The position numbers were made by a program, and so were the translations under genes. Under the pieces are notes generated by a model. It saw only the letters and a list, made by a program, of their open reading frames with translations. It was not told the DNA's origin and did not search any database. Below are positions 1 to 55,410 of a stretch of DNA of 64,000 nt, one piece after another. The stretch is taken from IMG/VR virus record IMGVR_UViG_3300027969_002800, positions 52,994 through 116,993 of that record. The stretch is one strand, 5' to 3'. Within the stretch, counting starts at the first letter, position 1. Every line of letters begins with the position of its first letter. This stretch comes from a virus.

Positions 1-912
1 GCTATATCAGTGATATTCACACCCAAGGGGAGAGAGAATAGAGACAAATGGAAACAGATAGAAGACCTCTATCCAGAATCAGAGTTTCATTATTACAATG
101 ATGAAGACAATTTAAATCAACTGTTAGGAATATATATTCCTGTACTAAGACCATATGTACTTTGGAAACATTTCAAAGCTAATCCAGAACTAAGTGAGAA
201 AGCAATATTCTATTGTGATTCAGATATTCTATTCACTAAAGATTTTAATGTAGATGAGTTCTTAGATGATAATGTTAACTACCTATCAGATACAAACAGC
301 TACATCAATGCTACATATTTTGATAGTAAAGAAAGAGATGTTCTCCCAGAGAAGCTAGAAGCATACAAAACAAGAGATGTTCTTGGAGAAATAGCTAGTG
401 TTATTGGTATAGATAGAGCAACATGTGAAGCTAACAATCTACACTCAGGAGGAGCACAATATCTACTAAAGAATGTAGATGGTGAGTTCTGGAGTAAGGT
501 GATGAATGATTGCATTCTTATTAGAACATATTTACAGAATGTAAATAGAGAGTTCTTTAAAGATGAGAATACAGGTTATCAATCATGGTGTGCAGATATG
601 TGGGCTGTTCTTTGGAACTTATGGTTTAGAGAACAAGAAACAAAAGTGGTTCCTGAACTAGCGTTCACCTGGGCAACAGACCCAATATCTAAACTAGAAT
701 CTCACACAATCTTTCATAATGCAGGAATAACAGGAGTATCAATGAATGGATATCCTTGTTTCTACAAAGGAAAATATCATCAAGGAACTGATCCTACAAA
801 AGATCCTCACTTAGATGATGTATTAAACAATATAGAATCACAGAAGTATTGTACATGGTTCTATGCAAACGAACTTAACAACATAAAGCAAAAATATAAA
901 CTTAATTATTAA
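1..912 (+). CDS. Glycosyltransferase-like protein (5' end cut by window)
   Basis: Frame 1 is open from base 1. A GTG at base 10 could start a 300-residue protein, but codons before it are also open, so the true start probably lies outside the window. An acidic motif CDSDILF near residue 70 sits in a hydrophobic strand as in DxD nucleotide-sugar sites of GT-A enzymes. Trp-rich stretches (WCADMWAVLWNLW) and a late His follow. The likely role is sugar transfer, perhaps to virion or host surface. The donor cannot be told from sequence. Two further glycosyltransferases lie at 5586-6982 on the other strand. Confidence 0.6.
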   Translation, partial: AISVIFTPKGRENRDKWKQIEDLYPESEFHYYNDEDNLNQLLGIYIPVLRPYVLWKHFKANPELSEKAIFYCDSDILFTKDFNVDEFLDDNVNYLSDTNSYINATYFDSKERDVLPEKLEAYKTRDVLGEIASVIGIDRATCEANNLHSGGAQYLLKNVDGEFWSKVMNDCILIRTYLQNVNREFFKDENTGYQSWCADMWAVLWNLWFREQETKVVPELAFTWATDPISKLESHTIFHNAGITGVSMNGYPCFYKGKYHQGTDPTKDPHLDDVLNNIESQKYCTWFYANELNNIKQKYKLNY

Positions 913-1173: not shown

Positions 1174-1605
1174 ATGGCACTAAAATCACTATTTCCAGAA
1201 GAAATGATGGAAGGTAAATCAGGAGGGGGTAGTGGGCTAACGCTAGAGACTATCGCTGGGAAGTTATCATACTTCTACGAACAATTACATTTGTTACATT
1301 TTCAAACTACATCATTTGCTGAGCATGAAGCTTTAGGTAAGATATATGATAAGGTGGGAGATTTCCAAGATGAAATCATAGAGAAGATTATGGGATATTC
1401 AGGAAAGAGAGTTAGAGCATACAAGATTGATGCTTTAAAAGATTATTCAGGAGGTATGCCTAACACAGTGGTAAAAGAGTTAGTTACATTTGCTAAACAA
1501 TTAGAAGAGTTTGGAGAAGCTAACAATATGCCAGACATAGAGAATGTTGCTCAATCATTAAGCGGAGAAGCAGCTCAAACTCTTTATAGATTAACCCTTT
1601 CATAA
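1174..1605 (+). CDS. Dps/ferritin-like protein
   Basis: The 143-residue protein has the Dps pattern: after a Gly-rich N-terminus, a helix carries LHLLHFQTTSFAEHEALGKI and continues into KVGDFQDEIIEKIMGY. The His of the first part and the later Asp/Glu residues sit where Dps ferroxidase ligands are found at the dimer interface. The family binds iron and protects DNA, but phage members are poorly studied. Ferroxidase activity and DNA binding are inferred only. It ends directly at the start of the next gene (TAA then ATG). Confidence 0.65.
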   Translation: MALKSLFPEEMMEGKSGGGSGLTLETIAGKLSYFYEQLHLLHFQTTSFAEHEALGKIYDKVGDFQDEIIEKIMGYSGKRVRAYKIDALKDYSGGMPNTVVKELVTFAKQLEEFGEANNMPDIENVAQSLSGEAAQTLYRLTLS

Positions 1606-2818: not shown

Positions 2819-3460
2819 ATGGCAATTACTAAAGTACCTAATGGTCCTCTTATTAAACCTAAAGGTCCATTTAAAGGAAGTACATTGAAAGCTGGTGGTA
2901 AGATAATCAAGAAAGCTCAGAATGGTAAAACTTGGCAAAGTATGTCTCAACCTGAAAAGGCAAGTAAAATAGCTGAGTTAAAGCAAAAAGGAGGATTTGA
3001 GAACGTTAAGAGATATAAAGACTCAATAAGTACAGATGCTGAAAATAGACGTAATGCAGCATTTCAAAAAAATGCAGATGTTAGAGGACTAACTGTAGAA
3101 CAGTTAAGACAAGCTAATAAAAAAGACGAACGTAAGCCTGACTTAACACCGAAGGGTGATTATAAAATGAGAGAAACCAAAAGTGCTAATACAGATGGCC
3201 CAAGTTTATTAAGTAGATTAAATCCACTTGGAGACAAAGCTAGATGTATTTATACTAATAATCGTGGTAAGGCTGAAACAAAAGCTAATGGTGGAAAGGT
3301 TAAGAAAGCTAAAGCTGGAGCAATGATTAAACGTGCTGATGGTTCATTCTCTAAACCTGGTCTTTGGGATAATATCCGTAAGAATAAAGGATCTGGAAAG
3401 AAACCTACTAAGCAAATGTTAGTGCAAGAAAAGAAAATAAAAGCTAAATCTAAAAAATAA
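2819..3460 (+). CDS. Basic protein with repeated GGKxxKKAxxG motifs
   Basis: The 213-residue protein is Lys-rich and probably disordered. The short motif GGKIIKKAQNGK near residue 26 recurs as GGKVKKAKAGAMIKR near residue 160 and as GATIKKAQSG in the protein at 4814-5335, so the two genes share a repeated basic element. Function is unknown; DNA or capsid binding is possible. It overlaps the next gene by one base (TAATG). Confidence 0.6.
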   Translation: MAITKVPNGPLIKPKGPFKGSTLKAGGKIIKKAQNGKTWQSMSQPEKASKIAELKQKGGFENVKRYKDSISTDAENRRNAAFQKNADVRGLTVEQLRQANKKDERKPDLTPKGDYKMRETKSANTDGPSLLSRLNPLGDKARCIYTNNRGKAETKANGGKVKKAKAGAMIKRADGSFSKPGLWDNIRKNKGSGKKPTKQMLVQEKKIKAKSKK

Positions 3461-4470
3461 TGGCAAATTGTAAAAATTGTAATTCTAAGCTAAAAGCATA
3501 TGCTAGAATTGATGGAACAAACACACTTGTTTCAGGAAGTCTTGTTTTAAGATTAACAAAACCTAAAGTTGGAAACTGGAAAGAAGTACAACCTATAGAA
3601 TATTTTAATAAAACTTCTCAACATTATCTTGACATAGTACAAGCTACATATCCAGATGCTAAATTAGCTAACACTGTTGCTATTAAGTTAGAACAATTTC
3701 TTTCTGATAGAGGAATTTATGCTAACAATACAGTTTTAAATTACACTTCATGTTCAGATGATGTTAATGCTCCTGAGTTTGCTAACATATTTAATATAGG
3801 TCAAACTCCTCCAGCATTAAATGAATTCCTTGGACCATTTATGGGTGGTGGTTTAGCAGGTTATCCTCATACAGGTGCTTTAGGATTACAAGCTTGGCAA
3901 AGTCATGCTACAACAGATACTCCTATTGATGGGCCTTTATTATTAATTAATATGCCTCACATAGGTGTTACACAACAAGCTGATCTTGTTGCTAGTAATG
4001 ATAATGTGGGTAGAATGTTAAGAAGAGGAAAAACTTCTGCTACAGCAGATAATACATGTGGAGCTGTAGTTACAGCTGCTCAATGGGTTATGACTAATAC
4101 AGCTAGTGGGCCTACTCCAGTGAGAGGTGCAGGTGTATTTGCTAATAATGACCAATACTTCACTCTTGCCACTATATTATGGGCAAATAGATCTACATTA
4201 TGTAATTCTACTAATAACTTTGTACTAGATCCTACTAAATATAGTGCTGGTGTTAAATTAGCTACAGAATATATTAGAGCAAAAAGTTTTACTGATTTAA
4301 AAAATACTTTAATACCTGTTCTTATAGGACAAAAGAATTTATATTTCCTAACTGCTACATTTATTAATACTGACGATGAGTGGGCTCCTTGTATTGATTT
4401 TAAAGAATTATGGCTTTGGGATTCAGGAGCTTGGACAAATCTTACAACACAATTTAATACATATTTATAA
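3460..4470 (+). CDS. LCIB/C-type beta-carbonic anhydrase domain fused to a virion-like N-terminal module
   Basis: The 336-residue protein starts with a CKNC pair and the module shared with 930-1163 (residues about 11-45). From about residue 53 it matches the LCIB/LCIC carbonic anhydrase family of algae and bacteria. The zinc and catalytic positions are present: Cys98 with Asp100/101 (TSCSDD), His167 (NMPHIGV), Arg188/189 (MLRRGK) and Cys200 (NTCGAV). The family turns CO2 into bicarbonate. Family motifs GGGLAGYPHTGALGL and TPIDG are also in order. The domain looks intact, so activity is plausible. Fusion to a short phage module suggests the enzyme or its fold is displayed on, or carried with, the virion. 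A non-enzymatic structural use of the fold is the alternative. Confidence 0.8.
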   Translation: MANCKNCNSKLKAYARIDGTNTLVSGSLVLRLTKPKVGNWKEVQPIEYFNKTSQHYLDIVQATYPDAKLANTVAIKLEQFLSDRGIYANNTVLNYTSCSDDVNAPEFANIFNIGQTPPALNEFLGPFMGGGLAGYPHTGALGLQAWQSHATTDTPIDGPLLLINMPHIGVTQQADLVASNDNVGRMLRRGKTSATADNTCGAVVTAAQWVMTNTASGPTPVRGAGVFANNDQYFTLATILWANRSTLCNSTNNFVLDPTKYSAGVKLATEYIRAKSFTDLKNTLIPVLIGQKNLYFLTATFINTDDEWAPCIDFKELWLWDSGAWTNLTTQFNTYL

Positions 4471-4748
4471 TGGCAACAGCAGCTTGGACACGTAAAGAAG
4501 GAAAGAATCCTTCTGGTGGATTAAACGCTAAAGGAATAGCATCATATAGAGCGGCAAACCCAGGAAGCAAGCTCAAAAAAGCTGTTACGACTAAACCTTC
4601 CAAACTTAAAGCTGGAAGTAAAGATGCAAAGCGAAGAGCATCTTTTTGTAGTAGAATGTCTGGGATGAAGAAGAAAAATACATCTTCTAAGACAGCTAAA
4701 GATCCTAATAGTAGAATCAATAAATCATTAAGAAAATGGAACTGTTAA
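4470..4748 (+). CDS. DUF6321-like small basic protein
   Basis: The 92-residue protein shows the family pattern AWTRKEGKNPSGGLNAKG at its start, then RRASFCSRMSGMK and DPNSRINKSLRKWNC at its end. Such proteins are common in phages and some bacteria; I know of no proven role. Three Cys could bind metal. Its start overlaps the previous stop by one base, as in the rest of this operon. Confidence 0.75.
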   Translation: MATAAWTRKEGKNPSGGLNAKGIASYRAANPGSKLKKAVTTKPSKLKAGSKDAKRRASFCSRMSGMKKKNTSSKTAKDPNSRINKSLRKWNC

Positions 4749-7493: not shown

Positions 7494-7757
7494 TTAGTTA
7501 TTAAGTTCTTTTGAATCATTTATCTCTGTAAGAATAGCTTTGTATTTATCTAATGGCATAGATCCAGACACTCTGTGCACCTCTTTACCATCTCTTAAGA
7601 AAACTAATGTAGGAACACTACGTACATTGTACTTCATAGCTGTTTCCATATCTTTTTCAATATCTATGTTAGTTATACCAATTACATCCTTTAATGTAGA
7701 TGCTAACACTTTACATGGTCCACATGTAACCATTGAAAATTTAAGTACTTCTATCAT
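7494..7757 (-). CDS. Thioredoxin-like protein
   Basis: The 87-residue protein has the redox motif TCGPCK near residue 11 and the cis-Pro motif RSVPTLVF near residue 46, followed by the usual GxxPLDKY-type helix. It is shorter than host thioredoxin (about 105) but complete in its core. Likely roles are electron donor to a ribonucleotide reductase or control of host redox state; no reductase gene is in the window. Confidence 0.85.
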   Translation of the reverse strand: MIEVLKFSMVTCGPCKVLASTLKDVIGITNIDIEKDMETAMKYNVRSVPTLVFLRDGKEVHRVSGSMPLDKYKAILTEINDSKELNN

Positions 7758-8467
7758 TTTTGTTTTTTCAATTTTTTAATACAATAGTTTTTATGTAAGT
7801 AATAAGAATTAACATTAAGTGTGTCACATGCTTCTTTTACACTACCATAAATTACATTGTTTATTAATACTTTAGTTGCAAATCCATTATTGCTACCTTT
7901 TTGTTTACCCTTTAAAGATTCTGATATAGCAGTAGCTCTTTTTGATCTATCTTCTTCAGACAAATTATCCCAATATGCTTTTACTGATGTTTTTCTTTTT
8001 GTTTTTTCTAAATCAGCAGTGTCACCATATTGTTCTTCATATGTTTTATATTCTCTATTTTCATTAATTGAACTTAACTTTTTCTTTGTTTGTTCACTAT
8101 GAGTTTTTCCATAGAAAGGATTATTTTCTCCAATATAGGAATCTTTAATTTTATTTAATGTTTCTACATCTTTGATTGATTTTTTGTTTAAAATTCTTGC
8201 ACTTCTTAGATTTACAATATGTTCACGTGTATCATTTTCATAACATTCAGCTATCATTAAATGTGCTTTGATATGATCTTCTACTGATAAATTTACAAAA
8301 TTAGTTTTGTTATTTACTGATAAAGTATCATCTGTCCATAAATTTTTAGGAATGATATGATGTTTATGTAAAACTAATGTTTTATCATAAGATAAAGTTG
8401 AACAATTTTTTATAAAGTCCAAATAAGTATAAAAATTTTCAAGATCAAAATGTGTTGCAGATTTCAT
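7754..8467 (-). CDS. HNH homing endonuclease with NUMOD repeats
   Basis: The 237-residue protein has HKHHIIPKNLW near residue 34 as the HNH core, then a NUMOD3 motif (GENNPFYGKTHSEQTKKKLS) and a NUMOD1-like DNA-binding helix region near the C-terminus (SVKEACDTLNV). This is the layout of free-standing phage homing endonucleases. It lies between phoH and the thioredoxin gene and overlaps the latter by four bases. Confidence 0.85.
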   Translation of the reverse strand: MKSATHFDLENFYTYLDFIKNCSTLSYDKTLVLHKHHIIPKNLWTDDTLSVNNKTNFVNLSVEDHIKAHLMIAECYENDTREHIVNLRSARILNKKSIKDVETLNKIKDSYIGENNPFYGKTHSEQTKKKLSSINENREYKTYEEQYGDTADLEKTKRKTSVKAYWDNLSEEDRSKRATAISESLKGKQKGSNNGFATKVLINNVIYGSVKEACDTLNVNSYYLHKNYCIKKLKKQK

Positions 8468-8486
8468 AATACAAATATACTAATTA

Positions 8487-9140
8487 TTAATCTTTTCCAT
8501 ATTCTAAAGATAAAATTTTTCCAACAAGATCTGATCTATGGTTTTCTTTCAATTTGATCCATTCAATTCCTTCTATTTTTTTAGAAAGTTCAATTACATA
8601 AGATAATCCAGTGTAACTATTTTTTGTATCATTTTGTTCTGAATCACCATTAATAATTATCTTACCTGTCTTACCAAGTCTTGTTAGTATAGCAAGCATT
8701 TCCCCTTTTGACAGGTTTTGCGCTTCCTCCACCACCAACACATCATCAATAGTTTTACCACGTATAAACTGAACAGGATAAGCAATAACCCTCTTGTTCT
8801 TAACCAGTTCTTGAATCTTAAGTTTATCATAACACTTTTCAAGGTTTTCCTGAAATGCTTCTAGGTAAGGATTGAACTTCTCTTCAAGATCTCCTGGAAG
8901 AAACCCTAGTGATCCACCCACTTCAATTGTTGCTCTTGTAACATAAATGTGATTACATTGTTTCTTCATTAAGAAATCTAAAGCAGCTTGGGCACATACT
9001 AGAGACTTACCACTTCCAGCTCTACCAGTAACAATAACTATTTGGTTATCTATTATTAACTGTTTAGCAAGCTTCTGTTCTTCGTTGAGGGTAACAGCAT
9101 ATTTGATATCACTTTTACGTTCCCTGTTAGGTTCTTTCAT
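8487..9140 (-). CDS. phoH: PhoH-like ATPase
   Basis: The 217-residue protein has a Walker A motif GRAGSGKS at about 39-46, a Walker B motif VLVVEEAQNLS near 127 and a sensor strand IIINGDSEQND. These and the segment GFLPGDLEEKFNPYLE are typical of PhoH-family ATPases, often thought to act on RNA. They are frequent in phages, with unclear purpose. The start overlaps the upstream HNH-like gene by 14 bases. Confidence 0.9.
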   Translation of the reverse strand: MKEPNRERKSDIKYAVTLNEEQKLAKQLIIDNQIVIVTGRAGSGKSLVCAQAALDFLMKKQCNHIYVTRATIEVGGSLGFLPGDLEEKFNPYLEAFQENLEKCYDKLKIQELVKNKRVIAYPVQFIRGKTIDDVLVVEEAQNLSKGEMLAILTRLGKTGKIIINGDSEQNDTKNSYTGLSYVIELSKKIEGIEWIKLKENHRSDLVGKILSLEYGKD

Positions 9141-9579
9141 ATTTTAGTTTTAATTGGTTACGTCTATTATTAACCTCCTCATACTTATACATGTCATTTT
9201 CAACATTAGAATGCTCCTCAAGGGTCAAAAGTATAATATTTTCTTCATCTAAACAAGCTTCTGGATACTTTTCTTTTGGTAAAATGTGATGGAAATATGT
9301 ACTCATTGCTTCTTTACCAAGATAGGCATCACTTATTTCTGACCTATGTGGTCTTTTCTTCCATATACACAAGAAGAACTGTCTCATTTCCAAGAACTTA
9401 CTAGGAGATTTGTCCAGTTTTTGTGATAATAAACTGGACTTTTGCAAAGATTTACCATCACTAACCCCTTTTTTAGGGGTTAATGTTGGCTTTAACCTAC
9501 TTTGAGCTAAAGGTTTTCTTTGTTTATGCTGAAAGCAATATTCTCCATCAGAATTCTTTCCACATGTTTTACACTTCAT
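9127..9579 (-). CDS. HNH/NinG-like nuclease with zinc ribbon
   Basis: I use the ATG at 9579 (150 residues), since the longer frame to 9654 would lie over the neighbouring gene. An N-terminal zinc-ribbon pattern (CKTCG, then C and H) is followed by a Lys-rich linker and FHHILPKEKYPE with ENIILLTLEEH, an HNH core resembling lambda NinG recombination nucleases. It could process recombination intermediates or be a homing enzyme. It overlaps the upstream gene by 11 bases. Confidence 0.6.
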   Translation of the reverse strand: MKCKTCGKNSDGEYCFQHKQRKPLAQSRLKPTLTPKKGVSDGKSLQKSSLLSQKLDKSPSKFLEMRQFFLCIWKKRPHRSEISDAYLGKEAMSTYFHHILPKEKYPEACLDEENIILLTLEEHSNVENDMYKYEEVNNRRNQLKLKYERT

Positions 9580-9874
9580 CTTCTTTAGTAAAGTAATGAT
9601 TGAAAGGATTAGGTCCTGATGTGTATGGTTGTGTACTACCAGATGTAGGACCATTAATACCTCCAGTTATTGGTAAAGTTCCAAATGGTGTAGGTGTGCA
9701 ATCACAACTTCCTTTCCATGGAGCATTTATCTTTCCACATCTATGACATTCCCATGATAAAGAAACTTTAGGACATGTGCACATTTGTGGTTGTCCTGTA
9801 CTACTCCAAGTAAGAGGCATAGTTTTATATCCTCTACAAGTTGTACATATCTGAGGGAAATCAAAATTAGTCAT
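9569..9874 (-). CDS. Cys-rich zinc-binding protein, 101 aa
   Basis: Four Cys pairs are visible: CTTC, CTC, CHRC and CDC, the layout of two zinc knuckles. A Pro/Gly/Thr-rich C-terminal half follows. Function unknown. It overlaps its downstream neighbour by 11 bases and its upstream neighbour by 8. Confidence 0.6.
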
Positions 9875-41550: not shown

Positions 41551-41882
41551 TGGTGGAGGTGGCGGCATACGATAGCCGCGTCCAAATTACGTTCATCAAT
41601 ACAATTTATACAGCTTATTTAGGGTCAAGCTCAGCTTAACGATCCACCACTCTGTTTAATCTAACAGAGAAATCTTCATTAATTTAGGCTGCTACACCAA
41701 GATCAGTATCTACATTCAATAATGAGAACACTTTGTTCATGTTAGCTTCGATTTGTGCGTTTGCTCCTAGAGCCACTACACGAGAATTGTTTTTGCCATT
41801 TAATTAAATTCACCTTAGTTTACAGTTATCTCTCTGGCTGATTGTATTAATTATTGGTAACCTGTCAAATCCAGTCACCCCC
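41551..41882 (-). ncRNA. ssrA: tmRNA
   Basis: The 332-base RNA starts GGGGGTGACTGGATTTGACAGG, the typical tmRNA 5' end, and ends with the acceptor strand CACCTCC plus encoded ACCA. GGGGGTG pairs with CACCTCC (one G-U). A T arm GCGGC/GCCGC precedes the end, though with an eight-base loop. P2 is seen as AATACAAT (41841-41848) with ATTGTATT (41598-41605), and a helix after the tag stop as CTCTGTT/AACAGAG (41650-41669). The predicted tag frame is 41684-41797. Bacterial tmRNA with SmpB rescues stalled ribosomes and tags the peptide for proteolysis. Confidence 0.9.
41684..41797 (-). other. Predicted tmRNA tag reading frame, 37 codons
   Basis: The frame begins GKNNSRVVALGANAQIEANM, continues NKVFSLLNVDTDLGVAA and ends at TAA. 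The start GKNN and the end VAA look like tmRNA tags, whose ends are normally AA preceded by L or V. The usual tag is about 10 residues and rarely beyond 30, so this is very long. An alternative frame starting one base later (AKTILV) stops after six codons and lacks the AA end. Confidence 0.65.
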
Positions 41883-47483: not shown

Positions 47484-47816
47484 ATGGCAGTAAAGAAAAC
47501 TACATACATAACAACGGAACTCAATTGGGCAGAAGAACAGTTATCAAGCTGGAAACAATACGTTGATGCTAATCCTTTACATACATTAGAGGATAGAATC
47601 AAATGGAAAGAAACTAAAGCTGGTGGTGCTATGCCTATGGTGATTGCCTCTATCGAGGCTCAAGGTAAGTTTGTACAAGAGACAATGAAGAACTATCTAG
47701 CTCTCTTAGAACAAGTAGAAAAGCTCAGAGAGAAAGAAGAAGCTAAAGCAGTACCTATAAGAGGTGGTGCTGAGCTTGGAAGTATGGCAGAAGAGTTTTT
47801 AAAAGGTAGAAAATAA
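47484..47816 (+). CDS. Possible small terminase subunit
   Basis: The 110-residue protein is helical (LNWAEEQLSSWKQYVDANPL), with coiled coil LLEQVEKLREKEE and end GSMAEEFLKGRK. It lies directly before terL with one shared base, where the small terminase subunit would be expected. There is no clear HTH, so this is a context-based guess. Confidence 0.45.
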   Translation: MAVKKTTYITTELNWAEEQLSSWKQYVDANPLHTLEDRIKWKETKAGGAMPMVIASIEAQGKFVQETMKNYLALLEQVEKLREKEEAKAVPIRGGAELGSMAEEFLKGRK

Positions 47817-49840
47817 TGGATGGACTACAAAGTATTGACTACAAGGATTGGTTCATCAATCAAAAGAGAGTTCCTCAGAAAGACTCAGATGAGTATAAAG
47901 CGTTCTATGCCTATCATAAACAACTATGCATTGATGGTTGTACAATGGGAGGAGTATATATCAATCCTTTTTTATATTGGCATTTAAACTTCTGGAATAC
48001 AGAAGTAGATATAATAGATGAACGTGGAAGAATATCACAGAAATATGCTAATCCATATTTACGTGATAATGAATGGGTTATTACAAATGAAATAGATAGA
48101 GCACAAATAGAAAAGAAAGGCCTAGTTATACTGGGCATTCGTCGTTTGGCTAAGTCAGTAATTGAGAGCAGTTATATAGGTTGGGGAGCTACATTTGATG
48201 AGAACTCCCAGAACATTATAGCAGGATTGAATGCTCCCGATATAAAGCTTATCACAGATAAGATTGACAAAGGATTAAACTTTCTACCAGAAGCATGGAG
48301 ATGGCAGAGGGTTGAGGATAATTGGAAAAACCAAGTTACTTTAGGGATCAAGACAAAAGCAGGAGAGCGAATCCCCTTTTCTCAGATCCTTATTCGTAAC
48401 TTAGATGGTGGTAATAACGAGGAAGCAATTGCAGGTACTAAACCTAGAAAATTAATTATTGATGAGATTGGTAAAGGAAGTTTCCTTAGAGGACTACAAG
48501 CTGCAACTCCAGGTTTTACTACACCATATGGTTGGGGATGTAGCCCTATCCTTACAGGTACTGGAGGAGATATGCAGAATTTTATGGATGCTAAGTCTCT
48601 TATGTTCGATGTAGAGAATTTCAACTTCCTTACATATAATAACGCTAAAGATGATAAACGAGTACATGGGCTATTCATATCCCATAAGTACAGAATGGAA
48701 GCTAAAGAAGAATCCACATTAGGAGCATACCTTGAACAACCAGCAGATTCTGAATTACACAATGTAAAGATGCTAGTCTCTAATGAAGAGAAAGCAGATA
48801 AGATTACAAATGATAACCTTGACAGATTAAAAAAAGCTGGTGATAGACTAGCTTATTTAAAAGAGAAGATGTATTACCCACAAGAAGTGGATGATATATT
48901 CTTGAATGAGGACACAAATATATTTGATATAGAAGCTACCAAACGTCAGAAGGCTAGACTACTAGCACAAGAAAGAACAGGAACCCCTGTTGTTCTTTAT
49001 GATGATGGTAATGGTGTAAAGCATGAGTTTACAGACAAATTACCTATATCAAACTTCCCTCTTAAGAATAGTGATAACAAAGAAGCTCCTGTAGTGATAT
49101 ATGAGTTTCCAATAGAGAGTCCTCCTTATGGATTATATGTAGCAGGGATTGACCCTTATAGACAGGGCAAGTCTGCTTATTCAAGTTCATTAGGATCTGT
49201 GTATATATACAAACGTATGCACAGTATATCAGGAGAGAAGTATCAAGATATGTTTGTTGCTAGCTATTGTGCTAGACCAGAGAAGAAAGAAACCTGGGAA
49301 GAACAAGCACGTTACCTGATTAAATATTACAATGCAAGAGCTCTATGTGAGAATGACGAAATATCTTTTATTGACTACATGATAGCTAAAGGAGATGCTC
49401 ATTACCTAGAAAGACAACCTGATTGGTTAAAGGAAATAGTTCCAAATACTACCGTAAGACGAGACTATGGAATACATAGATCTTCTGAGAAAATTAGAGA
49501 CTTTTTACATGGCTGCCTTAAAAAATATTCAGAAGAAGTTATACATACAGAGAAAGATGAAGATGGAAACATTAAATCTGAAACAAAAGGTATGTCTAAA
49601 ATATTTGATCCTGTTCTCCTCGAGGAGATGATACAATATAATGAGACAGGTAACTTTGATAGAATCATTGCAGCAGAACTAGCAATAGCTCTAGCAATGA
49701 AACTAGATCCCATAATGGGAAAAATAGGAGGAGAGCAAGATGTAAGAATGCAATCAATGTTCACAAAGAACAAAAAGAATACTCTGTTTACACAAAGCAG
49801 ATCAATGTTTAACACACCAAAAAATAAATTGTTTAGATAA
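47816..49840 (+). CDS. terL: Terminase large subunit
   Basis: The 674-residue protein has the packaging ATPase: Walker A-like LGIRRLAKS at 106-114, Walker B KLIIDEIGKG at 212-221 and motif III SPILTGTGG. The nuclease half has AGIDPYRQGKSAYS (first Asp) and ALCENDEISFIDYM. It packages DNA into the prohead and cuts it. Size and sequence style fit crAss-like TerL. Note that Walker A lacks the second Gly of GxxGxGK(S/T). Confidence 0.9.
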   Translation: MDGLQSIDYKDWFINQKRVPQKDSDEYKAFYAYHKQLCIDGCTMGGVYINPFLYWHLNFWNTEVDIIDERGRISQKYANPYLRDNEWVITNEIDRAQIEKKGLVILGIRRLAKSVIESSYIGWGATFDENSQNIIAGLNAPDIKLITDKIDKGLNFLPEAWRWQRVEDNWKNQVTLGIKTKAGERIPFSQILIRNLDGGNNEEAIAGTKPRKLIIDEIGKGSFLRGLQAATPGFTTPYGWGCSPILTGTGGDMQNFMDAKSLMFDVENFNFLTYNNAKDDKRVHGLFISHKYRMEAKEESTLGAYLEQPADSELHNVKMLVSNEEKADKITNDNLDRLKKAGDRLAYLKEKMYYPQEVDDIFLNEDTNIFDIEATKRQKARLLAQERTGTPVVLYDDGNGVKHEFTDKLPISNFPLKNSDNKEAPVVIYEFPIESPPYGLYVAGIDPYRQGKSAYSSSLGSVYIYKRMHSISGEKYQDMFVASYCARPEKKETWEEQARYLIKYYNARALCENDEISFIDYMIAKGDAHYLERQPDWLKEIVPNTTVRRDYGIHRSSEKIRDFLHGCLKKYSEEVIHTEKDEDGNIKSETKGMSKIFDPVLLEEMIQYNETGNFDRIIAAELAIALAMKLDPIMGKIGGEQDVRMQSMFTKNKKNTLFTQSRSMFNTPKNKLFR

Positions 49841-49841
49841 C

Positions 49842-52427
49842 ATGGCAATAATTAGATACACAAAAGATGCTACCATACGGTATGCCTACTTAAACATCTT
49901 TCCTGATCAGTTCAAGACAGAGAAGGAGAAACAAGATGAGAGCTGGATTAAAAACACCATGGATTATTTTTCCAACAAAGCTTATGCTGAATACATAAAG
50001 AATAGAGATACGTTTGTAAAGAACTATGATCTTATGAAGGGTATTCTACGTATGGAAGATTTCTATCAAGAACCAGAGGTGAGAAGCTTTACAGATGTAC
50101 TTACAGCAGATCTAGAACTTCCAGCTTATGTAAAACATTATTCTATTGTAACAACACCTATTAATGAGTTAGTAGGAGAGATATCAAAAAGACCTGATAC
50201 ATTCAGAGTGAAAGCTTTTGATGATGATAGTAAAGCAGAAGAGCTTCAGTTCAAGACTGATACATTACAAGAATATGTAATTAATCAAGTGAAACAACAA
50301 CTAGCTGCAAAAGCTGCAATGCAAGGAGAAGAAATAGATCCTGAGCAATTAGATCAGATGACTATGGAACAAGTTAAGGATCAACTTGATAGTTATACAT
50401 CCATAGCTGAGAAGTGGGCTAACCATGTTCTTACATGTCAGAAAGCTGAATTCAATCTTAAAGAAAAGAGTGAAGATGCATTTAGAGATATGTTAATATC
50501 TGCTAGAGAGTTCTATCATATATATGAAGACAACTCTAAGTTAGGATTTAACATAGAGGTGGCTAATCCAAAGAATACTTGGTACCTATCTACACCAGAT
50601 AGAAAATATATATCAGATCCAACAGGTAGAGCACAAGGTGCATATGCTGCTGGTACTGTGACAGTTATGGAACTATCTGAAATTATTGAATCTGTTCCTG
50701 ATCTTACTAAAGAAGAAATAGATCACCTTAGATCATCCTTACAAGATTATGGATTAATCAATGTACGTGAATCTAATCTTGGTAATCCTAATGCTCCAGA
50801 AGGACAAGACTCTGTGCAGTATGATACATTTGACCCTCTCGTTTTACAAACAAGAATGATGATAGAGAGTGAGATGAAAGAGAACAATGATGGACTTAAA
50901 GACTTCTTAGGACTAACCAACAACGTTAGTTCATTTGGATATAAGTATGTTGTTGTAAGAAGCTATTGGATATCTAAAAAGAAAATAGGTAAGTTGATTT
51001 ATACAGATGAAATGGGTAATGAGCAATCAATGCTTGTTGATGAATCATATAAATCAGGAACTATTCCTACACAATCATCACTAGAATGGGGATGGATTAA
51101 CCAATGGTATCAAGGAACAAAGATTGGTCCAGACATCTATCATATCAAACCATTTAAACTATTAAACTATTGTCCTATTATTGGTACTATACATGAGGTG
51201 AAGAACACAGAGGCTAAATCTCTTGTCGATCTTATGAAGCCTTTCCAGGTAATATATAATGTATGTATGAACCAACTTTACAAACTACTTGAGAAAGAGG
51301 TGGGTAAAGTGCAGCTTATGTCATTAAGACACATTCCTATTCCTAAAGATGGAGATGCACAAGATGCTCTTGACATATGGGAAATGGAAGCACGTAATAG
51401 AGGAGTGGTGTTTATTGATGATAGCCCAGAGAATATGAAGAGCCCTAGCTCATTCAATCAATTTACAGCTCTTGATCTTACACGTACACAAGAGATACAA
51501 TCTAGATATAATCTTGCTATGCAGATTAAACAAGAATGTTGGGAACTTGTAGGTATGTCTAAACAACGTATGGGATCTGTTTCTGCTTCTGAATCAGCTA
51601 CAGGTACTAACACTGCAATGCAACAGAGTTATTCTCAAACAGAGCCTCTGTTCGTGGCACATGAGTATGTGATGGGACAATTGTATCAGAGTATTATAGA
51701 TGCTGCTCTTTATGTAGAATCATCCAAACCACAATCTACTCTATCATATATTACATCTGAGGGTGAGTCTGCATTTGTACAAGTGAATGGAACAGATCTT
51801 AGATTTAGAGATTTGAAAGTGTTCCTTACTAATAGACCAGAAGATACACAAATGTTTAATGAGCTTAGACAATTGTCTCAAGCTATTATACAAAATGGTG
51901 GCACACTTTATGATGTTGTTGAACTGTACAGTTCTAAATCACAAAGAGATCTTAAGAAAACATTCAAAGATCTTAGAGATAGACAGATTGCACAACAAGA
52001 ACAAGCTAATCAGTTGCAACAACAACAATTGCAACAACAACAAGAACAATCTCAAGCACAAATTCAACAAGCTGCTCAACAAGCTGAAGCACAAATGGCT
52101 CATGATGATTATCAAAAAGAACTTGATAGACTATCTAAAAAAGAAATTGCCATCATACAAGCTACAGGATTTGGTAATGTTGAAGCTGAAGATGTTAATG
52201 CTAATGCTATTCCTGATGTAATGGAAGTTAGTAGACTTGCTTACGATCAAGATAAAGCTACTAAAGAATATGGATTAAAAATGGCTGATGTTCAATCTAA
52301 AAACAAACAGTTCAACGATAAGATGGCAGTTGAAAAAGATAAGATTGCTGTTGCAAGAGAGAACATGGCAAACGATTTAGCTATTGCTAAAGAAAATGCT
52401 AAGGGCAGAAATAACAAAAAAGGTTAA
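49842..52427 (+). CDS. Portal protein
   Basis: The 861-residue protein follows terL after one base, as in crAss-like phages. Typical portal segments include the N-terminal clip/wing region and FHIYEDNSKLGFNIEVANPK-like strand (HIYEDNSKLGFNIE). A C-terminal Gln-rich coiled coil (about residues 720-755) and Lys-rich helices follow. Twelve copies should form the DNA channel at one capsid vertex. The length is typical of crAss-like portals. Confidence 0.85.
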   Translation: MAIIRYTKDATIRYAYLNIFPDQFKTEKEKQDESWIKNTMDYFSNKAYAEYIKNRDTFVKNYDLMKGILRMEDFYQEPEVRSFTDVLTADLELPAYVKHYSIVTTPINELVGEISKRPDTFRVKAFDDDSKAEELQFKTDTLQEYVINQVKQQLAAKAAMQGEEIDPEQLDQMTMEQVKDQLDSYTSIAEKWANHVLTCQKAEFNLKEKSEDAFRDMLISAREFYHIYEDNSKLGFNIEVANPKNTWYLSTPDRKYISDPTGRAQGAYAAGTVTVMELSEIIESVPDLTKEEIDHLRSSLQDYGLINVRESNLGNPNAPEGQDSVQYDTFDPLVLQTRMMIESEMKENNDGLKDFLGLTNNVSSFGYKYVVVRSYWISKKKIGKLIYTDEMGNEQSMLVDESYKSGTIPTQSSLEWGWINQWYQGTKIGPDIYHIKPFKLLNYCPIIGTIHEVKNTEAKSLVDLMKPFQVIYNVCMNQLYKLLEKEVGKVQLMSLRHIPIPKDGDAQDALDIWEMEARNRGVVFIDDSPENMKSPSSFNQFTALDLTRTQEIQSRYNLAMQIKQECWELVGMSKQRMGSVSASESATGTNTAMQQSYSQTEPLFVAHEYVMGQLYQSIIDAALYVESSKPQSTLSYITSEGESAFVQVNGTDLRFRDLKVFLTNRPEDTQMFNELRQLSQAIIQNGGTLYDVVELYSSKSQRDLKKTFKDLRDRQIAQQEQANQLQQQQLQQQQEQSQAQIQQAAQQAEAQMAHDDYQKELDRLSKKEIAIIQATGFGNVEAEDVNANAIPDVMEVSRLAYDQDKATKEYGLKMADVQSKNKQFNDKMAVEKDKIAVARENMANDLAIAKENAKGRNNKKG

Positions 52428-52434
52428 AAAAGTT

Positions 52435-52450
52435 CTCCTCTTCGGGGGAG
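52435..52450 (+). repeat. TTCG-loop hairpin after portal
   Basis: CTCCTC and GGGGAG close a cTTCGg tetraloop just after the portal stop, without T-tract. It may be a processing or mRNA-stability element, leaving some read-through to the scaffold gene. The 120 bases after it to 52570 hold no gene. Confidence 0.65.
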
Positions 52451-52570
52451 TAAAAAATATTAATGCTATATTATCAACAAAATTGAATCATATCAACTGA
52501 TAATGCTTTGATATTCAAAACTCTTATTATACATTTACATTAAATAAACCAAACACAAATACAACTACAT

Positions 52571-53827
52571 ATGGCTGACAATTTAGAAACTATGGGAAAC
52601 TTTAGTATCCAAGATACTATGGAAATGGGAATGGGTAACCAAGAACTATTAAATGACTTGTTTTCCCCTGAGACAGCATCATCTAATCCAGAAGATGTAA
52701 CTCCTATTATCAATGAGGCTGATGCACCTGCTGCACCTGCTAAACCAGAAGTTCCAAAAGGTAAGGATATTGTTCCTCCTAAGAGCGTTGATGGTAAAAC
52801 AGATGAAGAGAAACTAGAAGGTCAATCAATGATCTCTGATTTCTTAAGTGATAATCCTGATGATGAAGAGGAAGAAGCTCCAGTATCAAAAGTTGCAAAA
52901 TCTGCAACAGTTGATAATGATGAGGTTGAAGATGAACCAGAAACAACACAGTTCACAGCTCTTGCTAATGATCTATATAAACTAGGAGTGTTCACATCTG
53001 ATGATGATACACAAGAACCAGTTTCTACAGCAGAAGAATTCTTAGAAAGATTTAATGAAGAAAAGAAAAAAGGTGCTAGTGAAATAGTACAAAACTTCAT
53101 AGGACAATTTGGAGAAGATTATCAAGAAGCTTTTGATGCCATATTTGTAAAAGGAGTTGATCCAAAAGATTACTTCACTACATATAACACTGTTGTTGGA
53201 TTTGCTGAGATGGATCTTTCTGATGAGACCAATCAAGTTAGAATAATGAAACAAGCTCTAACTAATCAAGGGTTTGATCCAGAAGATATAGAAACAGAAG
53301 TTGAAAGACTTAAAAACTATGGTGACTTAGAAAGTGTTGCAACTAAAAACCACAAGGTGTTAGTTAAAAAAGAAGCAGCTAAGTTACAAGAATTAGAAGC
53401 TAAATCTGCAGCTGAGCTACAACAAAAAGCTCAAGTCAGAAATCAATATATAAGCAATGTGCAATCCATCTTAAATGATAAGGTGAAAGCAAAAGAGTTT
53501 GATGGTATTCCTATCAATCCAAAATTAGCAACAGAACTACAAGACTTCTTATTAGTAGATAAGTGGAAAACTCCATCAGGAGAAACTCTTACAGACTTTG
53601 ATCGTGCTATTCTTGATATGAAAAGACCTGAGAACCACGCAATGAAAGTTAAGGTGGGGCTAATTCTAAAGATGTTAGAAAAAGATCCTACATTATCAGC
53701 TATACAAAGAACAGGTGTTACGAAGAAATCTAACGAACTGTTTGGAGAAGTTGCAAGACAAGTTACCAAAGCTAAGAGCACTGGTACAGGAGCAAGTAGT
53801 GTTAATACAAAATCGTGGTTTCAATAA
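52571..53827 (+). CDS. Scaffold-like capsid assembly protein
   Basis: The 418-residue protein has an acidic, Pro/Ala-rich N-terminal half (DNPDDEEEEAPVSK, DNDEVEDEPETT), a helical middle with coiled-coil (KLQELEAKSAAELQQKAQVR), and ends VNTKSWFQ. It lies between portal and capsid genes, the scaffold position. Composition and location support an assembly scaffold. No protease gene was seen nearby. Confidence 0.65.
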   Translation: MADNLETMGNFSIQDTMEMGMGNQELLNDLFSPETASSNPEDVTPIINEADAPAAPAKPEVPKGKDIVPPKSVDGKTDEEKLEGQSMISDFLSDNPDDEEEEAPVSKVAKSATVDNDEVEDEPETTQFTALANDLYKLGVFTSDDDTQEPVSTAEEFLERFNEEKKKGASEIVQNFIGQFGEDYQEAFDAIFVKGVDPKDYFTTYNTVVGFAEMDLSDETNQVRIMKQALTNQGFDPEDIETEVERLKNYGDLESVATKNHKVLVKKEAAKLQELEAKSAAELQQKAQVRNQYISNVQSILNDKVKAKEFDGIPINPKLATELQDFLLVDKWKTPSGETLTDFDRAILDMKRPENHAMKVKVGLILKMLEKDPTLSAIQRTGVTKKSNELFGEVARQVTKAKSTGTGASSVNTKSWFQ

Positions 53828-53856
53828 CAAATTAATAATTAATAAATTCAAATAAA

Positions 53857-55410
53857 ATGGCAGTTCAAACAATCCCTGGGTTAACTGGTTTTACTTATGC
53901 TCGTGTAGCGTCTATGGACAAGCGTGCAGTAGGTAAACTTACAGACTCGAATCACTTGGAAAGTTTTCACTCTACTGAGCCTGCGGACTATGACAAAAAA
54001 ATCATCAGTCTTTATACCCAGAGCTCATTGTACAGTAATGACTTTCTTGACATGATCAACAAAAGCACACCTTATTATATCGATAATAATAGTGATGCAT
54101 GGAAATGGCAAGTAGCAGTTCCTTACAAATTCCCAAAAATTATTGACATCCCTGCTTCTACAGAAGCTCTGAGCAAACCAGGTATCGATGGTCAAGAATT
54201 CCAATTAGTATTAGATACTAATGAGTTTTCTAAAAACGCTATCATCTCTGTAGGTACACGTCAGTATGGTCCACGTTTCTACGTAATTAAAGATCCTGTG
54301 CCTTGGAATGCTGGATTTTTGTATTCATTCACTCTTGTGACTGACAATCCTACTATCGATTTCGTTAATCCTTTGTTCTTACAATATGGTATCGAACTTG
54401 AATTAGTTGATGCAGCTATTGGAGAATTTGATCAAGACTTATTAGGTCTTCCAAGATTAGGTGAGCAAATCACAATGTTCGAATCTTTAGGTTCTGCATA
54501 TGGATATGAGCACAAAATCACAGAATGGGCTGATGATAAAATGATGAGAGATGCTTCAGGTAAACCTCTTGACATTTTGGTATATGCTCCACAAAGACGT
54601 AACCAATTACCTTTAACTCGTAATGATGTTAAATGGGAACCGTTCATTGAGTTCTGGATGCGTAAATCTATGTTGGAATTGAAAGTTAAACGTATGATCT
54701 GGGCTAAACCAGGTACAGTTAAAACTAACGGTTCTAAACAAGAAGTTAAACGTACATCTGCTGGTGTTTACCACAGAATGAGAAACAATGGTAACTTAGT
54801 ACAATACAACAGAGGTGAATTCTCTGCTAACTTGATTCGTTCAGTATTTGGTGATCTTTTCTACAGAAGAGTGGATGTTAAAGACAGACGAGTTAAAATG
54901 TACACTAACGAAGCTGGATTCGATGTATTCCAACAAGCTTTGAAAACTGATGCATTAAATTCAGGTCTTACATTTATGGCAGATTCTGGAAACAGATATA
55001 TGCAAGGTGAAGGACAACATATCACTTACAACTTTGCATTCGATGCAATGGTTACACGTGAGACTGGTAGAGTTGAACTTATTCACTTGAAAGAATTAGA
55101 TTTACCACAAACTAACCTAGAGTTTGGACAAAACAAAAAATCTACGCCTGTATTTATGGTGTTTGATGTTTCTCCAATGGGTGATGGTAGTATGGTGAAC
55201 AACATTAGAGAAGTGAGAATGAAAGGTGCTCCTTCTATGACTTGGGGTTATATTGATGGTACTCGTCACCACTTAGGTTTTGCTAAGTCTCAAGGTATGA
55301 GTTCAGCTAACAAATTCCCAGGATATGAAATTTGGATGAAAGACAGATGTGATGTATTCATCGAAGATTTGTCTAGAACTGTGTTGATCGAGGAAATCCC
55401 ACAATTCTAA
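53857..55410 (+). CDS. Major capsid protein (HK97 fold)
   Basis: The 517-residue protein starts MAVQTIPGLTGFTYARVAS and has SNHLESFHSTEPADY, then long beta/alpha body of HK97-like type. Size, order after portal and scaffold genes and codon use richer in C and G than its neighbours (high expression) identify the major capsid protein. It ends before two RNA hairpins and a tRNA. Confidence 0.85.
   Translation: MAVQTIPGLTGFTYARVASMDKRAVGKLTDSNHLESFHSTEPADYDKKIISLYTQSSLYSNDFLDMINKSTPYYIDNNSDAWKWQVAVPYKFPKIIDIPASTEALSKPGIDGQEFQLVLDTNEFSKNAIISVGTRQYGPRFYVIKDPVPWNAGFLYSFTLVTDNPTIDFVNPLFLQYGIELELVDAAIGEFDQDLLGLPRLGEQITMFESLGSAYGYEHKITEWADDKMMRDASGKPLDILVYAPQRRNQLPLTRNDVKWEPFIEFWMRKSMLELKVKRMIWAKPGTVKTNGSKQEVKRTSAGVYHRMRNNGNLVQYNRGEFSANLIRSVFGDLFYRRVDVKDRRVKMYTNEAGFDVFQQALKTDALNSGLTFMADSGNRYMQGEGQHITYNFAFDAMVTRETGRVELIHLKELDLPQTNLEFGQNKKSTPVFMVFDVSPMGDGSMVNNIREVRMKGAPSMTWGYIDGTRHHLGFAKSQGMSSANKFPGYEIWMKDRCDVFIEDLSRTVLIEEIPQF

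Follow-up and report, generated by a model that had tools for sequence, protein, structure and literature searches.

The locus and its LCIB-type gene

The DNA considered here (the window) is a stretch of 64,000 nucleotides, corresponding to bases 52,994-116,993 of the 116,993-base IMG/VR virus record IMGVR_UViG_3300027969_002800. Close to its left end lies a gene whose product combines a short N-terminal module with a domain of the LCIB type of beta-carbonic anhydrases (beta-CA). An earlier note on this DNA had placed such a domain at positions 3460-4470, in a protein of a crAss-like phage; the coordinates proved exact, and the profile search which that note had proposed recovered the family: LCIB_C_CA (PF18599) matches the protein with E 2e-17 and 63.7 bits (cut-off 25), amino acids (aa) 73-216 aligning with positions 7-128 of the 223 of the profile. 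In phmmer searches the protein matched PDB entries 6kfs (1.9e-9) and 5b5y, PtLCIB4 (9.8e-7). A 39-row profile, in which the window protein is joined by 35 viral and 3 bacterial relatives, aligns with PtLCIB4 across nearly its full length (E 1.2e-34), and PF18599 is matched at 0.001 by 39 of the 39 members of alignment A2.

The structure prediction, also proposed in the earlier note, gave an LCIB fold. The AlphaFold2 model built from the 39-row alignment has a mean predicted local distance difference test score (pLDDT) of 81.3 and a predicted template modelling score of 0.77, with weak parts at residues 1-8, 45-50 and 102-114. Foldseek returned eight matches at E <=0.001, every one of the LCIB type. 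Residues 54-333 of the model could be superposed on chain B of 5b5y with Z 25.8 (235 residues, 2.2 Å, 23% identity over the superposed residues), and other superpositions gave Z 25.4 for 6kfs, 19.9 for CrLCIB (5k5w) and 11.8 for the best ordinary beta-CA; the 50 structure entries shown rank LCIB-type proteins first and ordinary beta-CA after them. Enzymes of the LCIB/C type are dimeric. As judged by the model, the LCIB domain of the window protein is complete, and its half-length Pfam match reflects divergence, given that the 39-row profile spans almost the whole domain and the superposition aa 54-333. Chance similarity to LCIB is ruled out by the Pfam score, the Z of 25.8, the A2 matches and the E of the 39-row profile.

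The ratio of nonsynonymous to synonymous substitution rates is 0.12-0.36 in eight pairs of LCIB relatives, a range that speaks for purifying selection on the phage LCIB genes. The GC content of the gene is 0.328, compared with 0.327 for the record. DNA identity of the window gene to those of two related loci (L006, L007; loci are numbered with L throughout) is uneven: it amounts to 0.42-0.57 before aa 100, 0.65-0.77 at aa 101-200, 0.88-0.92 at aa 201-240, 0.73-0.83 at aa 241-280 and 0.47-0.62 past aa 280, while the LCIB of L014 reads differently at aa 201-280. The pattern at aa 201-280 may be due either to mosaic exchange or to local constraint.

Active site

To count residue conservation, 56 distinct viral proteins, 80 bacterial proteins and two PDB fragments were aligned; each count uses only the rows that cover the column in question. 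The residues previously named as zinc ligands and active-site residues (C98, D100/D101, H167, R188/R189, C200) are all present; of the paired arginines, however, R188 is invariant, whereas R189 is not. It is R188 that is presumed, by analogy, to be the Arg of the Asp-Arg dyad. C98 and D100 are kept in 54/54 viral and 80/80 bacterial rows (the other counts are given in Table 1). The list in the earlier note lacked two active-site residues, H149 and S99, which align with H88 and S47 of PtLCIB4. In the S99 column, directly after the first Cys ligand, 53 of 54 viral rows have Ser, and not Arg, while the remaining one has Ala. The H88A chain of PtLCIB4 has Ala in the H149 column, and the S47R chain differs in the S99 column. 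The roles of S47 and H88 are those we presume from the molecule names of the PDB entries and from passages of PMC13144422. This paper, of 2026, notes that a conserved Gln/His was suggested to stabilise the transition state of beta-CA, and a paper on the LCIB structure is among those it cites for impaired activity upon its replacement (PMC13144422).

Since one of the retrieval patterns includes CSDD, the counts were repeated with the 30 rows outside this pattern: C98 and D100 are kept in 28/28 (two rows being gapped), S99 in 27/28, H149 in 29/29, and H167, R188 and C200 in 30/30 each. Between two viral proteins identity can be as low as 25% (median 39%); 34 of the 255 well-filled columns are invariant, the active-site set being among them. 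By this residue pattern the active site of the window protein is intact, and carbonic anhydrase chemistry is the likeliest activity of the phage LCIB, which we assume with good confidence.

N-terminal modules and their cargo

The bacterial LCIB rows are stand-alone open frames of 236-290 aa with 45-64 residues before the first Cys ligand (80/80), compared with 88-148 residues in 52 of the 53 untruncated viral rows. At least four kinds of N-terminal segment are found on viral LCIB; the carriers include crAss-like phages and one phage that has a tail sheath gene. The type I module, that of the window, comprises about 43 aa, roughly KAYVRYDGSGRIVPGSLILRRxKPKVGxWxEIPAYECC, with strands predicted by the AlphaFold2 model at residues 12-17, 29-31 and 40-42. 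The record has two copies of it, one at the start of the LCIB protein and the other in a Thr-tailed protein of 77 aa. The fusion of LCIB to a module shared with this Thr-tailed protein, pointed out in the earlier note, is well founded: aa 11-50 of the LCIB protein are identical to it at 23 of 40 positions (E 2e-14). The profile of the type I module, built partly from viral LCIB rows, matches 31/56 viral and 0/80 bacterial LCIB rows.

In related loci the same module heads neighbouring genes with Thr-rich tails or with FISUMP, leucine-rich repeat (LRR_5) or unassigned C-termini; examples are FISUMP in L007:6999-8039 (PF09603, E 6e-36) and LRR_5 in L029:4879-6078 (E 5.7e-26). Scanning IMG/VR for the module yielded 287 relatives out of 300 pattern matches, and the best 80 of these loci contain 130 module genes, one to three per locus, near-copies included; 63 of the 130 have a short tail (<=60 aa) with more than 40% Thr. 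A signal-like hydrophobic N-terminus was found in 0/102 unique N-module proteins. Among the LCIB proteins 9/53 were flagged as signal-like, the flagged part being the module's own IVPGSLIL-type strand. The proteins follow a display-type plan, with a short N-terminal module common to proteins with different C-terminal cargo.

The type II domain (L045 type), of about 65 aa, is unrelated to type I and also heads five distinct non-LCIB neighbours in L045, L055 and L071; three of these neighbours contain long Thr/Pro repeats. Type III (L068/L069) has an N-terminus that looks fibre-like by eye, and type IV is the further distinct N-terminus of the first L050 gene. In L050 two strongly diverged LCIB genes (7746-8867 and 8878-9804) stand in tandem, and the other genes of the contig match nothing labelled.

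Several further observations concern such modules. Four genes of L152 (3298-4515, 4535-5866, 5886-7550 and 16421-17284) have in common a different N-terminus of about 60 aa, the last of them weakly (1.6e-4); two of the four have Thr-rich stretches after it, which makes it a second adaptor family within one phage. BFVD entry A0A7S9SUE7 (Virus NIOZ-UU157), of 142 aa, is 50% identical to the window model over 52 columns (E 0.032) and may be a further N-module protein, in this case of a named virus. The cargo of the N-module protein L223 2825-3412 resembles a cupredoxin by a motif noticed by eye only (YNCQYHSGM); Pfam gave 0 families for it. The idea of a tRNA-Thr serving the Thr-rich tails is weak: the 97-base call has the anticodon AGT, the main Thr codon is ACA, and Rfam gave no report.

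Relatives and phylogeny

In IMG/VR, 63 loci with LCIB relatives were obtained out of 97 pattern matches, so that relatives of the phage LCIB, as recognised by sequence, occur in many environmental phages. Neither PHROGs nor NCBIfam has a family for the window protein, nor does PHROGs have any for the LCIB proteins of L045, L066, L069 and the first L050 gene. In BFVD nothing was found at E <=0.001 for the window model, the best match being a Pandoravirus carbonic anhydrase (9.6e-3). A phage LCIB or a crAss-like carbonic anhydrase was not found in the open-licence papers searched, which does not establish its absence from print; the term "carbonic anhydrase" does not occur in the main text of a Crassvirales review, by word search (PMC10136315).

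Of the 84 bacterial relatives found in the genome scan the best 80 were kept (L072-L151), the top match being 29% identical. By title they are mostly from Bacteroidota, with few others, e.g., Ignavibacteria and one metagenome-assembled genome of Bythopirellula. Within the class to which genome G002 belongs, 9/198 genomes, G002 included, have the cellular LCIB family. A maximum-likelihood tree was made of 58 rows. In it a branch with support 100/99 and length 1.38 separates all 37 viral rows from 19 bacterial and two PDB rows (bacterial and diatom LCIB); long branches drew a warning from the tree program, and both PDB rows are only fragments. On this tree the phage LCIB form their own branch and are not nested among the bacterial rows.

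Recent capture of a host gene is not favoured, considering the single distant phage branch, the GC content equal to that of the record and the lack of a phage-type copy in the genome scan. No prophage or phage-type LCIB copy was seen among the best 80 of the 84 bacterial relatives, a scan of genome contigs with two patterns only, and a prophage origin found no support there either. As for a defence or anti-defence gene, PADLOC was applied to three proteins and reported 0 families.

The carrier phage and its gene neighbourhood

The large terminase subunit (TerL), portal and major capsid protein (MCP) of the carrier are related to those of crAss-like phages (phrog_6681, phrog_6547, phrog_11589). 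TerL is matched by 88 INPHARED records, including Cellulophaga, Flavobacterium and gut crAss-like phages; the best among the 15 of 88 records listed are Leptolyngbya phage Lbo-JY46 (40%) and Cellulophaga phages phi17:2/phi4:1 (31%), while gut crAss-like phages are at 25-30% among the matches listed (csAssE-Sib 30%, cr115_1, cr10_1, cr4_1). By these proteins the carrier is a crAss-like phage in the broad sense, and to this extent the earlier assignment is borne out. The CO2-rich gut, which had been suggested as the setting, is another matter: no tie to the gut was seen, the top listed TerL matches being from Leptolyngbya and Cellulophaga phages, although csAssE-Sib is nearly equal.

As to the host, Shine-Dalgarno-like sites precede only 4 of 84 genes, compared with 2.2 expected by shuffling, and the leaders are A-rich (the count is based on our own gene calling, with open reading frames of at least 100 aa starting with ATG). 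Missing Shine-Dalgarno signals and A-rich leaders are usual in Bacteroidota, and a Bacteroidota host fits these leader sequences. Bacteroidota -33/-7 promoters were found upstream of 2 genes of the carrier, which does not bear on the choice of host. A cyanobacterial host, an idea arising from the Leptolyngbya phage with the nearest TerL, is not favoured in view of the few Shine-Dalgarno-like sites and the A-rich leaders, but this argument is weak because Lbo-JY46 itself has such sites at 2/32 genes (2 of the 34 coding sequences in the stretch excluded, without shuffle control). For Lbo-JY46 (L242, PP438436.1; GC of the stretch 0.319) a cyanobacterium is the recorded host, yet it is the nearest in TerL among the matches listed and the only tblastn match of the carrier MCP (26%); its host assignment may deserve a check.

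On the + strand, the right end of the record carries TerL, portal, a 418-aa protein, MCP and tail-type genes. At the left end this strand encodes virion-type proteins, one protein of 4320 aa, a fibre that is collagen-like and a 701-aa protein with a FISUMP domain; a peptidase that by eye is M15-type, the module genes and LCIB are also there, after which a block on the - strand begins. Neighbourhoods cover 58 of the 63 LCIB loci (those of at least 8 kb). An MCP was recognised in 12 LCIB loci (L031, L034-L042, L065 and L067, several of them near-copies) and was confirmed in L041 by phrog_11589. The module form on the LCIB proteins of the MCP loci L008 (the same contig as L041), L031, L034, L035, L039, L042 and L065 matches with E from 5.5e-16 to 1.3e-19. 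In L069 the LCIB gene sits between the head-tail adaptor and tail sheath genes; the locus has a major head protein (phrog_138, 2.9e-68), an adaptor (phrog_211), a tail sheath (phrog_23, 2.2e-71) and a tail tube. In L052, which is of the L045 type, the genes close to LCIB include those of a head-tail adaptor (phrog_211, 1.4e-9) and a DNA polymerase.

Table 1. Features of the LCIB locus and its surroundings, in window positions
Feature	Positions	Strand	Evidence
LCIB-type carbonic anhydrase fusion gene, 336 aa, ATG start	3460..4470	+	PF18599 E 2e-17; fold Z 25.8 to PtLCIB4
Candidate N-terminal adaptor module, aa 11-50, small, beta-rich	3490..3609	+	58% identical to start of 930-1163
LCIB_C_CA domain, aa 54-333	3619..4458	+	superposition range and profile match
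Codons C98 (zinc ligand), S99 (= PtLCIB4 S47), D100 (catalytic Asp)	3751..3759	+	alignment
Codon H149 (= PtLCIB4 H88)	3904..3906	+	55/55 viral, 80/80 bacterial
Codon H167 (zinc ligand)	3958..3960	+	56/56 viral, 80/80 bacterial
Codon R188 (presumed Arg of Asp-Arg dyad)	4021..4023	+	56/56 viral, 80/80 bacterial; role by analogy
Codon C200 (zinc ligand)	4057..4059	+	56/56 viral, 80/80 bacterial
Sister gene, N-module and Thr-rich tail, 77 aa	930..1163	+	shared module
Part of phrog_4417 gene (338 aa in full record), DxD motif, glycosyltransferase-like by eye	10..912	+	
DUF5856 / Dps-like gene, recurrent neighbour	1174..1605	+	phrog_858
DUF6321 gene	4470..4748	+	PF19846 E 2.4e-19; match in 21/58 loci
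TerL, portal, 418-aa protein, MCP (context)	47816..55410	+	phrog_6681, phrog_6547, phrog_11589

Two more neighbours recur. A Dps-like DUF5856 gene stands beside module genes in L012, L015-L020 and L043, and a Dps-like match lies downstream of LCIB in L039, L041 and L065. The phrog_4417 gene, with its glycosyltransferase-A-like DxD motif noticed by eye, adjoins the N-module gene in the window, L012, L015-L020 and L043, with one gene in between in L017. Its product is perhaps a phage O-glycosyltransferase acting on a Thr-rich virion substrate, against which it should be said that the adjoining module gene is not Thr-tailed in every locus. The record also has a phage-borne transfer-messenger RNA at window positions 41551-41882 on the - strand (Rfam RF00023, 72.8 bits compared with a threshold of 47, E 2.1e-26), for which ARAGORN made no call.

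Discussion

The closest known parallel in architecture is provided by the head fibres of crAss001. According to parts of PMC10172136, residues 1-38 of gp21 and 1-58 of gp29 occupy hexon pockets, with variable C-terminal domains outside; most crassvirus groups have no recognisable homologues of gp21 and gp29, and uncharacterised proteins might play analogous roles. The module proteins resemble them in plan (a short N-terminus and a variable C-terminal domain, in the same broad group of phages); they differ in that the cargo here is an enzyme domain, and their location on the virion is a proposal. Display on the virion is the likeliest location of the phage LCIB, and probably the actual one, because the module family combines a short constant N-terminus with varied cargo and no export signal, like the crAss001 head fibres, and because LCIB uses this module and at least one other shared N-domain. 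The modular context, as read from the sequences, makes virion carriage more likely. The proposal also draws on the position of LCIB amid structural genes in the window record, in the 12 loci with a recognised MCP and in L069. That virion display and carbonic anhydrase activity are combined, i.e., that the gene encodes a catalytically competent, phage-specific LCIB-type beta-carbonic anhydrase riding as cargo on virion adaptor proteins, appears to us about evenly poised. The wider proposition, that tailed phages of environmental Bacteroidota, both crAss-like and contractile-tailed, display active carbonic anhydrase via exchangeable N-terminal adaptors, as part of a broader system of interchangeable cargo on crAss-like capsids, is tentative and falls slightly short of an even chance.

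The mechanism could be as follows. By analogy with the N-termini of gp21 and gp29, the short module would dock on the capsid or neck during assembly and leave the LCIB enzyme exposed on the particle, where the domain would bind zinc and interconvert CO2 and HCO3- + H+. The most speculative step, a guess, is that the enzyme would serve, when the phage adsorbs or enters, to act on carbonate and pH locally, within the boundary layer around a respiring Bacteroidota cell.

Several points weigh against virion display of an active enzyme. The second L050 LCIB gene has no adaptor, because only 52 residues precede its first Cys, and its neighbours match nothing labelled. Structural context is not established in many of the loci L021-L029 and L044-L064, because most neighbours there are unlabelled. 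The type II N-domain is poorly modelled (pLDDT <50 at residues 1-35 and 37-48), and among the structure matches no row covering it was shown, the model being poor there. The description of the cargo as surface-type draws on few matches and on Thr-rich composition, since few of the 50 long-cargo N-module proteins match Pfam at 0.01 (SSP160 twice; LRR_5, PKD_4 at 0.003, a mucin-like family and four others once each). In a tblastn search of 50,697 INPHARED phage records the window protein, the LCIB proteins of L045 and L069 and the N-module were unmatched. Finally, a review passage gives no quantified in vitro activity for Chlamydomonas LCIB (PMC9614477).

Among LCIB/C-type beta-CA (PF18599; PtLCIB4 5b5y, entry 6kfs, CrLCIB 5k5w) the phage protein agrees in fold and in the Cys-His-Cys set, Asp, Arg, catalytic His and Ser, but it belongs to a separate branch, carries the additional N-terminal adaptor and is encoded among structural genes of phages, not as part of an algal CO2-concentrating system. 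DabA2 of the inorganic-carbon uptake complex DAB2 is alike in its beta-CA-like Cys2His zinc site and Asp-Arg dyad; however, the transition-state Gln/His, present in the phage protein as H149, is missing from DabA2, which is part of a membrane complex (passages of PMC13144422). Cellular LCIB of Bacteroidota and few other bacteria are of the same family, with the catalytic residues in 80/80, but are 24-33% identical in the best segment and stand alone without the module, and the phage rows are not nested within them.

This last comparison bears on the possibility that the protein is an auxiliary metabolic enzyme of the cytosol, produced late during infection and supplying bicarbonate or removing CO2 for carboxylations in nucleotide and lipid synthesis, with the N-module serving solubility or oligomerisation. 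The absence from all bacterial rows of the N-terminal segment that 52/53 untruncated viral rows have argues against it, as do the FISUMP, LRR and Thr-rich cargo of the same modules and the position of the gene within the + strand block that holds fibre genes. We consider such a role unlikely, even though it would suit the intact active site, the lack of a signal peptide, the cellular LCIB kept by some relatives of the presumed host (9/198 genomes) and the adaptor-free second L050 gene.

It is doubtful, and still less probable, that the LCIB fold has been repurposed as an adhesin or receptor-binding cargo of the virion, its enzyme function being lost. The module that bears LCIB in some proteins bears FISUMP or LRR cargo in others, DNA similarity is uneven inside the LCIB domain, and FISUMP domains, which have a C-type lectin fold, are found among the variable proteins targeted by diversity-generating retroelements in Bacteroides phages and human microbiomes (passages of PMC8143477, PMC4159848). 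However, the residues of the pocket, with the catalytic His, Asp and Arg among them, do not vary although identity elsewhere falls to 25%, and a binding-only role is disfavoured because some of them would be expected to be lost. Very improbable is a beta-CA-fold zinc enzyme, hydratase or hydrolase, that acts, on the virion or in the cell, on another small substrate (carbonyl sulfide, carbon disulfide or similar): hydrolases of this fold for both compounds exist, and the phage branch lies far from characterised LCIB (length 1.38), but no positive sign of a different substrate was seen. Moreover, the protein agrees with PtLCIB4 in S99, in H149 and in the Cys-His-Cys/Asp/Arg set, and PtLCIB4, according to a review, appears constitutively active (PMC9614477).

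For the family, LCIB, known mainly from algal CO2-concentrating systems, gains a phage branch for the comparison of sequence with activity. To our knowledge, the known virion-borne enzymes degrade walls, capsules or nucleic acids. If virion display of an active carbonic anhydrase is true, an enzyme turning over CO2 and bicarbonate would represent a new class of virion chemistry, one that is not directed at polymers. As for the crassviruses, the N-module family is a concrete candidate for the role of gp21/gp29-like head fibres, which, in the part of PMC10172136 concerned, is left open in most of them.

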